Made by a program: the position numbers and the translations under genes. A stretch of 25,424 nt of DNA from a virus: positions 1 to 25,424 of the IMG/VR virus record IMGVR_UViG_3300047493_000202; one strand, given 5' to 3'. The notes under the pieces were generated by a model, which did not search any database, was not told where the DNA came from, and saw nothing but the letters and a program-made list of their open reading frames with translations. Below are positions 17,155-19,468 of this stretch, in pieces (position 1 is the first letter of the stretch; each line of letters opens with the position of its first letter).

Positions 17155-17639
17155 TTGCCCGGCGGTATCCCCGCCGGCTTACGGCGCATTTTTGGCGCTG
17201 GTTTGGCGCCACCGCGCGCCGCCGCGGCCTTGCGCCGCTCACGATCCAGCCACGCTTTCAGCCCCTCAATCACATCATTGCCGGCCTCCGGCGTCAAAAA
17301 CTCCGCCGCATCCACGCCCGCCTGCCGCTTCACAAACGTATCAAGCGCGCGCTGCGAGTGGTTGCCCACATACGGCTTCAAATCCTTCCAGATGCCATAG
17401 ATCATCCGCACATAGGCTTTGTCAGAGAGCGGTCGGCGCTTTGCCGCCTCGGCCACAAACCCCAGCCGGGTGAACTCCGCCATCACCGCCTCAAGCTGCC
17501 CCAGCCCGCAATCCGCCGAGTTGCTCTTGCCCGTAATCCGTAGCAAAATGCCGCGATAATCCCCATCCTCCAGCTTGAGCTGCTTCTTGGCGATATGCAC
17601 TTTCGCCAGCATCGCCCGCTTCTCCGGCTGCACACTCAT
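17151..17639 (-). CDS. GemA/gp16 family regulatory protein
   Basis: This protein has 162 residues from the ATG at 17639 (MSVQPEKRAMLAKVHIAKKQLKLEDGDYRGILLRITGKSN). That N-terminus is the gp16/DUF1018 signature of Mu GemA, a middle-region protein that modulates host and phage gene expression and supercoiling. Also diagnostic are LDTFVKRQAGVDAAEFLTPEAGNDVIEGLKAWL and an Ala/Lys/Arg-rich tail. An in-frame start seven codons upstream is possible but has a Met-Pro-Arg-Gly-Arg leader and is less likely. It overlaps the mor-like gene, so the two are co-transcribed as in Mu. Confidence 0.88.
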   Translation of the reverse strand: MSVQPEKRAMLAKVHIAKKQLKLEDGDYRGILLRITGKSNSADCGLGQLEAVMAEFTRLGFVAEAAKRRPLSDKAYVRMIYGIWKDLKPYVGNHSQRALDTFVKRQAGVDAAEFLTPEAGNDVIEGLKAWLDRERRKAAAARGGAKPAPKMRRKPAGIPPGK

Positions 17640-17690
17640 GGCGCACCGCCCGCGAGGCATCCGGGGGCAACCAGCCCCCGGATCATAACG

Positions 17691-17873
17691 TCAGTGTTTC
17701 TCGTGGGCCTCCGTGGCCCGTTCGAGGTCAGCTTTAATAAGCCGGCAAATATAGGCCACGCCAAGAACTTCCTCGGCCGGCAGAGCGTTCTGCCGGTCAA
17801 CCAAAGACTCCCCAAGGAACTCCAAAGCGTTGGCCGCCTGCAAAACGTCCCCGGTGTAGTTAAAGTCCTGCAT
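17691..17873 (-). CDS. 60-residue protein of unknown function, antirepressor cassette
   Basis: This small, mostly helical protein (MQDFNYTGDVLQAANALEFLGESL...VLGVAYICRLIKADLERATEAHEKH) has no recognised family. Its ATG at 17873 lies inside the last 14 bases of the upstream 121-residue gene, and it is followed by the gemA-like gene. It belongs to the same transcript as the antirepressor-type gene. It could be a small partner protein or phage accessory; nothing in the sequence allows more. Confidence 0.6.
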   Translation of the reverse strand: MQDFNYTGDVLQAANALEFLGESLVDRQNALPAEEVLGVAYICRLIKADLERATEAHEKH

Positions 17874-18225
17874 TGCCAGCCTTCATCTGGGCGCGAAGCC
17901 GCATGTGCTCGAGGGTCTCCTGCAAAAGCTCTTCCTGCCGCGCCTCGTATATCTTCCGAAGCTCGGCCTCCTGTTGTTTGATCTCCTCGAAGAGCGGGTC
18001 TGCCAGCACGCCAAGCCCCGGATTGACAAAATGCGGGTCCGGAACCTCGATATTGTAAGCAAGTATCGCACAGTCCTCGGCGGTCATAAGGTGCTCCGCC
18101 AACTCCTCCTTCATATCTTGCAGAATCTCTGGAGTCAGTTTTAGCTGTTTGCTCCGGGCCAACCGTTCCAACTGAAAGAAGAGGTAGCTGAGGGCATCGA
18201 GGGTGAGAAATAATGGCTCTTCCAT
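17860..18225 (-). CDS. 121-residue helical protein of unknown function, antirepressor cassette
   Basis: This acidic, helical protein has a start rich in aromatic and hydrophobic residues (MEEPLFLTLDALSYLFFQLERLA). A long C-terminal coiled-coil-like segment (EEIKQQEAELRKIYEARQEELLQETLEHMRLRAQM) follows a Pro-containing middle (VPDPHFVNPGLGVLADP). No family was recognised. It starts three bases after the antirepressor-type gene and overlaps the following 60-residue gene, so the three genes form one accessory unit inserted between the early region and gemA. Confidence 0.65.
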   Translation of the reverse strand: MEEPLFLTLDALSYLFFQLERLARSKQLKLTPEILQDMKEELAEHLMTAEDCAILAYNIEVPDPHFVNPGLGVLADPLFEEIKQQEAELRKIYEARQEELLQETLEHMRLRAQMKAGNAGL

Positions 18226-18228
18226 CGC

Positions 18229-18903
18229 TCAGCCCTCCCCGCCAAGAAGTCGCGGCGCCGACTTGTCTTTTCCAAGAAGCTTCCGACGATTCTTGACGTA
18301 CCGCCGAATACTCTCCGGCTGATAGCCAGAACGCGCCACCTTCTGTTTCACCTTGTTGAGGATTGAAGTACCACGGCCCATCAAATCCGCGCCTTCTTCC
18401 CACTCGTCCGCATAAGCATCGAGCAAGGAGTCGCCAGGGATTGCACGCACGCCCAGTTTCAAATCGCGCAACACATCCACAGAAAGCTGGCTCAGCGAAA
18501 ATAACCGTTCCACCTCGTCCAGCGCCTGCACTACTTCGAGTGCCGGCGGAGTTGCGCCGGGCGAAGTAAGCGTGAACGACTGCTGACGACCGCGTCGCAC
18601 ACCGGCGATAAGGCCCAGAGCCCATTCTCGGAAGTTGTCGCCCTGCTTTGTCCCCAGATTGATCCCAAGCCGATCCGCACCAGCGAGAGAGACAATCCAT
18701 TGCGCCTGCATGCCGCCGTTGCTCGGAAGCAAAATTTTCTGTGCCTCGTGGGGGATGAAGCGGTGCTGATGCCGGTTTATAATCCTCAGTAAAGTGGACT
18801 TCTGGCACGCCAAAGGCTGTGCAAGTTGTCCTAACCTTAGCCAGGTTTGCCCATCCTTCTGGACGGTCTCCAAATCGTATTTCTCGTAGCGTAAAATGCT
18901 CAT
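18229..18903 (-). CDS. BRO-N-like antirepressor-type protein
   Basis: This protein has 224 residues. The first 100 show a BRO-N/antirepressor-like pattern: a strand pair LRYEKYDLETVQKDGQTWLRLGQLAQPLAC, then a segment with NRHQHRFIPHEAQKI, then QAQWIVSLAGADRLGINLGTKQGDNFREWAL, the usual 'L....GL..L.......A..F..W' ending. The remainder is helical and basic (RRYVKNRRKLLGKDKSAPRLLGG). Antirepressors inactivate phage or host repressors and so favour induction, but the BRO-N fold is also found in other regulators. A strong ribosome site AGGAG six bases before the ATG at 18903 lies inside a stem (see leader). Two unknown helical proteins follow at once. Confidence 0.7.
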   Translation of the reverse strand: MSILRYEKYDLETVQKDGQTWLRLGQLAQPLACQKSTLLRIINRHQHRFIPHEAQKILLPSNGGMQAQWIVSLAGADRLGINLGTKQGDNFREWALGLIAGVRRGRQQSFTLTSPGATPPALEVVQALDEVERLFSLSQLSVDVLRDLKLGVRAIPGDSLLDAYADEWEEGADLMGRGTSILNKVKQKVARSGYQPESIRRYVKNRRKLLGKDKSAPRLLGGEG

Positions 18904-19140
18904 TGTAGGCTCCTACGTTATGGAACCGCACCATGCGGTTCCGGGTGTTCGAAAGCTGACGTAGGACAGCCGCGCACGTCTTTAGGCCGCCATTGCTGGC
19001 GTCCATTGGACATTCACGTGCGCCACCCGGAAGTACAGGGAACCCCGTTTCGCGGAGGAAGGCGCCTACGTTCAGCTCACTATCGGACCGGTTTCGACGC
19101 CGGGCCGTAGCAAGCTGACGTTGCAACAGGCCGCCGCGAT
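18904..19140 (-). promoter_or_regulatory. Structured double-copy leader of the antirepressor-type gene
   Basis: This leader holds three successive inverted-repeat blocks. Block A (18908-18971) has an outer stem TCCTACGT/ACGTAGGA (18911-18918 with 18959-18966), extended by GGC/GCC, and an inner 9-pair hairpin GGAACCGCA/TGCGGTTCC with a 3-base loop. Block B (18972-19023) has an outer stem GCGCACGT/ACGTGCGC and inside it CGCCA/TGGCG. Block C (19061-19132) has an outer stem ACGTTCAGCT/AGCTGACGT, with GCCT/AGGC, and an inner hairpin CGGACCGG/CCGGGCCG. Blocks A and C share CCTACGTT and AAGCTGACGT and have the same architecture with different but still paired inner hairpins. In A the ribosome site AGGAG (minus, 18914-18910) is fully inside the outer stem. 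Riboregulator, thermometer or protein-bound leader are all possible. No named RNA family was recognised. Confidence 0.6.
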
Positions 19141-19152
19141 TTGTCAACATAT

Positions 19153-19248
19153 TCATTTTTGGCCGCCCCAGCCCGCCGCCAGGGCTGCCAGCCAGCGCCA
19201 AAACCCAGCCCGGCGCGCCAACCGGCGCCGCCGCGGGTCAATCAGCAC
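19153..19248 (-). CDS. Possible 31-residue Arg/Trp-rich peptide
   Basis: A GTG at 19248, two bases after the stop of the zinc-ribbon gene, opens a 31-codon frame. It has a basic start (LIDPRRRRLARRAGF), an amphipathic or membrane-like helix (WRWLAALAAGWGG), and a TGA stop at 19153-19155. Small basic/hydrophobic peptides are common in Mu-like early operons, but no ribosome site is clear and evidence is limited to position and composition. Confidence 0.3.
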   Translation of the reverse strand: MLIDPRRRRLARRAGFWRWLAALAAGWGGQK

Positions 19249-19249
19249 G

Positions 19250-19468
19250 TTACGAAGCCAGGAATGTGCGTTTCGCCGTCCGATAACCATCATGTTGCTC
19301 CTGGATGATAACTGGCCGCGCCGCAGCGAGGGCCATCTTCACGTAATAAACCCATTGCAGCTCGGCGATTTCCGTGCAGCGCGGGCAGGCATCGATGTCC
19401 GCCGCTCTCTTCGCCCCCGGCCGCAGCCTGGTGTTGCCGCACACATGGCAATCACCAGGTGCCGTCAC
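19250..19468 (-). CDS. Small zinc-ribbon protein, early region
   Basis: This protein has 72 residues from a GTG at 19468 that overlaps the TGA of the upstream gene (GTGA). It has CHVC (residues 7-10) and CPRC (28-31), separated by a basic turn, a treble-clef/zinc-ribbon type pair, then an aromatic helix AELQWVYYVKMALAAARPV. Such small zinc-ribbon proteins are usual in phage early regions and may bind nucleic acid or host polymerase. Exact family unknown. Confidence 0.6.
   Translation of the reverse strand: MTAPGDCHVCGNTRLRPGAKRAADIDACPRCTEIAELQWVYYVKMALAAARPVIIQEQHDGYRTAKRTFLAS

Follow-up and report, generated by a model that had tools for sequence, protein, structure and literature searches.

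The CI RNA of P4, with its elements seqA, seqB and seqC, follows the order upstream target, RNA, downstream target, and it acts by premature transcription termination. The C4 RNA (RF01695) of P1 and P7, whose upstream target is c4-a1b1 (RF03163), is built as an outer stem enclosing two hairpins and measures about 77 nt once processed. It is cut by RNase P from a longer transcript and pairs with its target mRNAs via two segments, one of which partly covers the ribosome site (PMC5320573). A third RNA, sRNA-Xcc1 (RF02221), belongs to no Rfam clan and has been described as a virulence-linked sRNA, as cargo of vesicles, or as lying next to symE in integron cassettes (PMC2996969, PMC12189769, PMC12444791). 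One of these three papers places C4, isrK and sRNA-Xcc1 within 400 nt in Xylella, and PMC3256417 deals with integron-encoded sRNA-Xcc1. No mechanistic link between sRNA-Xcc1 and C4 was found in the literature covered by a limited collection.

The window, that is the entire 25.4-kb virus record analyzed here, corresponds to a Mu-like phage. Judging from its sequence, the leader of its antirepressor gene very probably yields a C4-type antisense RNA that silences this gene. This reading is adopted because a loop of the RNA is complementary to the Shine-Dalgarno (SD) sequence of ant, and because the layout is that of the P1/P7 C4. The features of the locus are the following:

23401-21317, minus strand: MuA
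21324-20320, minus strand: MuB
19119..19147, minus strand: promoter-like site (TTGACA at 19147-19142, a 17-nt spacer, GCAACG at 19124-19119)
19089..19100, minus strand: upstream tail target GCGTCGAAACCG, whose TCGAAA pairs with UUUCGA of the RNA
19065..19077, minus strand: upstream loop target AGCTGAACGTAGG, with a 7-nt complement of the locus's own loop
18939..19032, minus strand: C4-like antisense RNA body of about 94 nt, with a covarying fold and a match to RF02221
19032-19024/18947-18939, minus strand: RNA outer stem UUCCGGGUG/CACCCGGAA, pair probability 0.94-1.0
19023-18972, minus strand: hairpin 1, long
18971-18954, minus strand: hairpin 2, GGCUG-UCCUACGU-CAGCU
18959..18966, minus strand: hairpin-2 loop UCCUACGU, the anti-SD segment, a perfect 8-nt complement of 18918-18911
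18949..18955, minus strand: tail segment CUUUCGA, mostly single-stranded, complementary to the upstream tail target
18922..18942, minus strand: spacer hairpin GGAACCGCAUGGUGCGGUUCC (GGAACCGCA/TGCGGTTCC) between the RNA and the SD, covarying in ten loci
18911..18918, minus strand: downstream target ACGUAGGA in the SD region of the antirepressor gene, complementary to the loop
18229..18903, minus strand: antirepressor gene, phrog_5060-like, between MuB and GemA
17660-17151, minus strand: GemA
17154-16819, minus strand: Mor-like activator

The likeness to C4 extends from the outer stem enclosing two hairpins to the complementarity of loop and tail with a two-part upstream target, the pairing at the ribosome site, and the antirepressor gene located downstream, which is homologous to the ant gene of phage Aaphi23. 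A number of differences can be noted. Hairpin 1 of the window element carries an extra arm, a downstream tail target, present with C4 and in many RF02221 loci, is missing and a spacer hairpin is found there instead, and the SD with which the window loop pairs is that of ant itself, whereas a segment of the P1 C4 pairs with the SD of icd. The window loop would be the counterpart of the P1 segment covering the ribosome site, and the window tail that of the other segment. Phage Aaphi23 harbors a genuine Rfam C4 (58.2 bits) about 50 nt ahead of ant, with upstream tail and loop targets in the same order as in the window and a tail target that is also present downstream. With P4 CI, the locus shares the succession of upstream target, RNA, and downstream target; by contrast with the termination mechanism of P4, no terminator was seen at the window SD.

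In the Rfam search of the window, no match was obtained at gathering thresholds. The C4 model RF01695 gave none at E<=10 in 18880-19300 and none at E<=0.5 in 20 related loci. Weak matches to the Lambda cIII thermosensor, Bacillaceae-1, and Xoo5, obtained at relaxed thresholds (E 2.8-5.5), were discarded. The initial annotation, which recognized no known RNA class here, is thus borne out as far as gathering thresholds are concerned; the element is, however, a relative of RF02221 and has the C4 layout. On sequence grounds, it is best read as a branch of C4-type antisense RNA that was not recognized before.

The product of the gene at 18229..18903 is related to phrog_5060 (anti-repressor Ant; E 1.1e-9), to Ant of Haemophilus phage Aaphi23 (tblastn 8e-7), and to the Ant encoded by the relative L011 (BLASTP 8e-26; 31% identity over 204 aa), and a Pfam search of this product returned no match. 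By these homologies the protein encoded downstream of the RNA is a diverged antirepressor, in line with the antirepressor-type gene proposed initially, and its family membership suggests that it antagonizes a repressor. A protein-based scan of viral and genome contigs returned no relatives of it. Upstream of the leader, TTGAC is found 116 nt 5' of the RNA element (115 in L011) in all ten antirepressor-type loci, with GCA kept 17 nt further on. No TATAAT-like -10 was recognizable at this site, and its conserved position is what makes 19119..19147 a candidate promoter. A small ORF located upstream of the leader (19250-19468, minus strand) has a weak zinc-ribbon match, PF13453, below the cut-off.

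The strong folding reported for this region was confirmed, with a z of -2.45 relative to shuffles for 18880-19170. The closed unit 19032-18939 is present in both the fold centroid and the pairing ensemble. Among 30 distinct sequences, 26 of the 28 pairs of the RNA are changed on both sides, 97.8% of cells are paired, and covariation reaches 0.525 versus 0.135 for shuffled alignments, in an alignment that had been fitted to the covariance model. A MAFFT alignment of 5 sequences agrees with this result (7 pairs with double changes; covariation 0.254 versus 0.084 shuffled). The covariance models R1 and R2 score 110.9 and 89.7 bits, respectively, at the RNA body, the window being in both training sets. 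Taken at the level of compared sequences, the RNA fold of 18939..19032 is real. The GGAACCGCA/TGCGGTTCC hairpin already pointed out at 18922-18942 was also recovered, and in ten relatives 95.5% of its cells are paired, with a covariation of 0.502, compared with 0.150 on average for shuffles. This spacer hairpin overlaps the outer stem of the RNA at GGAA, and since GGAA is common to both, the two structures compete. An extra hairpin, CCUCCGCGAAACGGGG (19043-19058, minus strand), lies between the upstream target and the RNA and is partly conserved in relatives.

Besides the SD region, the loop UCCUACGU is complementary to ACGUAGG upstream (the copy at 19071-19065). This upstream loop target (19065..19077) adjoins the target of the single-stranded tail of the RNA, and it pairs, one bulge aside, with the 3' arm of hairpin 2 as well. 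The first two bases of the tail segment CUUUCGA close hairpin 2. The duplex is estimated at -16.8 kcal/mol with the SD region and at -30.3 kcal/mol with the upstream region. In the window, only the loop/SD part (8 nt) of the downstream target is present.

The same pairings were compared in ten Mu-like antirepressor loci (the window, L010, L011, L025, L026, L037, L038, L039, L058, and L059), whose hairpin-2 loops all differ. The complement of a locus's own loop within the first 40 nt downstream measures 8, 8, 11, 8, 8, 6, 7, 4, 8, and 7 nt, a result reached in 0 of 20,000 permutations against the targets of the other loci. The loop matches its own SD region over at least 6 nt in nine of the ten loci, and in nine the complement lies 18-22 nt 3' of the element, over the SD; in L039 the SD match is degraded to 4 nt. 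Upstream, a 7-nt loop complement is present in nine loci, at -40 in eight and at -38 in L011, L025 having no exact match. The tail target lies near -66, and 2 of 20,000 permutations gave a tail/upstream complementarity as good. Across 29 loci from the family at large, the loop-upstream, loop-downstream, tail-upstream, and tail-downstream complementarities were each reached in 0 of 5,000 permutations. Off-diagonal matches of at least 7 nt occur in 3-12% of pairings, and single matches are therefore weaker evidence than the whole set. These comparisons indicate that the loop-SD, loop-upstream, and tail-upstream complementarities are real and found at fixed distances. Ten distinct loops on one scaffold are as expected for immunity specificity, and loops that differ in every locus resemble a set of immunity types.

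RNA-based control of the antirepressor-type gene, one of the possibilities raised in the initial annotation, is the interpretation that fits best, the SD being a target. The transcript would start about 100 nt upstream of the RNA and would carry successively the two-part target, the compact RNA of about 94 nt, and the antirepressor SD. The RNA would probably be cut from the leader, as C4 is. Pairing of its hairpin loop with the SD would block ribosomes and turn ant translation off, and tail and loop together would pair with the upstream target of new transcripts, an interaction that may serve as a decoy, in termination, or in the control of processing. RNA made by a prophage would silence the antirepressor both in cis and in trans, stabilizing lysogeny, and would confer immunity to phages with the same loop. 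This suggests that P1-style RNA immunity is also carried by Mu-like phages of Alphaproteobacteria, in a form missed by every Rfam family.

A purely cis-acting attenuator or switch, operating through alternative folds of one transcript with no separate RNA acting in trans, is unlikely. All partners are indeed on one transcript, with the upstream target made first, and GGAA is contested between the spacer hairpin and the outer stem. Nevertheless, the RNA body behaves as a closed, self-contained unit (probability of 0.94-1.0 for the outer stem and of 0.001 for the SD stem), and solo copies without a gene target exist. Moreover, published work on P1/P7 describes C4 as an RNA that is processed and acts on target mRNAs (PMC5320573).

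It is much less probable still that the leader is a two-copy structure masking the SD in its own stem and sensing temperature, RNA, or a protein, as initially proposed. The direct repeats behind this proposal are present (AACGTAGG.GCCT at 19060-19072 and 18907-18919, plus the ACGTCAGCTT copies), as is the GGAACC hairpin. The SD does have a perfect upstream complement, but the stem that would mask it has a probability of only 0.001 in cis. It is the gene-proximal outer stem of the proposed three-block fold, and the outer stem of the RNA of about 94 nt, which competes with it, reaches 0.94-1.0. Relatives do not conserve the outer stem of block 1 (56.7% of cells paired versus 54.8% shuffled), the middle block belongs to the body of the conserved RNA instead of forming a separate stem, and blocks 1 and 3 have inner hairpins that are different elements, not covarying copies. 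Covariation is real inside the RNA and between loop or tail and their targets, but there is none between copies. Antisense pairing explains the loop-target covariation over ten loops, the upstream target included. What had been taken for a gene-proximal outer stem is the antisense match of the loop UCCUACGU to ACGUAGGA, and the other repeat copy (19071-19065) offers this loop a second target, located upstream. In place of a two-copy leader, the region looks like a C4-type antisense layout with an upstream and a downstream target, and nothing favors either a thermosensor or a bound protein.

Least credible of all is a protein-coding leader, rejected even though the long frame 19201-17636 passes through it, the repeat spacings (153 and 159) are multiples of three, and L010 has a similar 516-aa frame: there is no Pfam or PHROG match, the conserved pieces are in different frames in L011, double base-pair changes preserve structure, and the presumed transcription start lies downstream of the starts of the frame. 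No relatives of this leader frame were found by the protein-based scan. The 521-aa open frame (17636-19201, minus strand) extends across the RNA and the antirepressor gene in a reading frame other than that of the gene. Spurious proteins could be annotated from frames of this kind, LPGGARECP and QLSNTRN being translated conserved RNA.

As to the distribution of the C4-type element, blastn detects the scaffold, unannotated, on two Sphingobium plasmids, and DNA patterns derived from it matched the IMG/VR contigs L010, L011, L058, and L059 as well as eight alphaproteobacterial genomes. No DNA match was found in the named phages searched. R1 matches 14 of 398 genomes from the family of the L026 host and 10 of 385 from its class. 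Most of the Mu-like loci searched harbor a Bro-N/phrog_5060 antirepressor, and L010 and L038 a P22_AR_N antirepressor; one RNA scaffold therefore serves two antirepressor families. The L026 fragment has weak helix-turn-helix matches only. The neighbor genes checked in relatives encode MuA, MuB, or GemA, and distant members sit before small proteins of unknown function. Several copies from sphingomonads have the upstream target only, followed by a GC-rich terminator-like hairpin, with no SD target. Solo copies that match the upstream target but are without a clear SD target comprise L008, L009, L019-L024, L043, L044, L050, and L053-L057, and genome G004 contains five copies of the element. Other candidates were set aside: L003-L005 (DNA pattern GCTGAACGTAGGNGCCT) are three chance matches, L015-L018 (looser DNA pattern) are also chance matches, and L048 was discarded, being probably a false positive of the RNA model.

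The closest Rfam family is sRNA-Xcc1, RF02221 scoring 26.2 bits (E 0.02) on the window RNA at relaxed thresholds, short of the gathering cut-off of 53 bits, and 31.7-34.4 bits on five relatives. Conversely, of 30 RF02221 loci, R1 recovers 9 and R2 recovers 19, at coordinates identical to those of the RF02221 matches. No RF02221 sequence scoring above the cut-off had gone into either model, and the E-values are modest (6e-5 to 0.2). RF02221 was found in 57 of 399 Pseudomonadota genomes, 39 of them over the cut-off. In 30 of its loci, the same four complementarities of loop and tail to upstream and downstream targets are present, each reached in 0 of 5,000 permutations. Its downstream genes include Bro-N, P22_AR_N, KilA-N, Rha, and SymE, the others encoding small proteins of unknown function. 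The two groups thus share a fold, since the models match each other's members at identical coordinates, together with two-target complementarity and antirepressor genes. They differ in that the window remains below the RF02221 cut-off and in that the literature treats the family as a virulence-linked sRNA, not as C4-like (PMC12189769, PMC12444791).

It is likely that the window clade and RF02221 form one large, so far unrecognized C4-type class of two-target antisense RNAs, with swappable loops that would determine immunity in the case of phage antirepressors (Bro-N, P22_AR_N, KilA-N, Rha), and that this class would also silence SymE toxins. If true, the virulence-sRNA reading of sRNA-Xcc1 would need revision, and this RNA, now discussed as a virulence regulator and vesicle cargo, would gain a testable mechanism. 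Integron symE cassettes would also be predicted to carry a C4-type antitoxin RNA. Among the RF02221 loci L060-L089, some (for example L060 and L080) have the element upstream of SymE toxin genes, with a loop complementary to the SymE leader, and L080 has two such elements. The sequence of these loci suggests that RF02221 before SymE is a C4-type RNA antitoxin different from SymR. Finally, genome G1043 harbors nine RF02221 elements, possibly corresponding to several prophages or to a host-adopted set.
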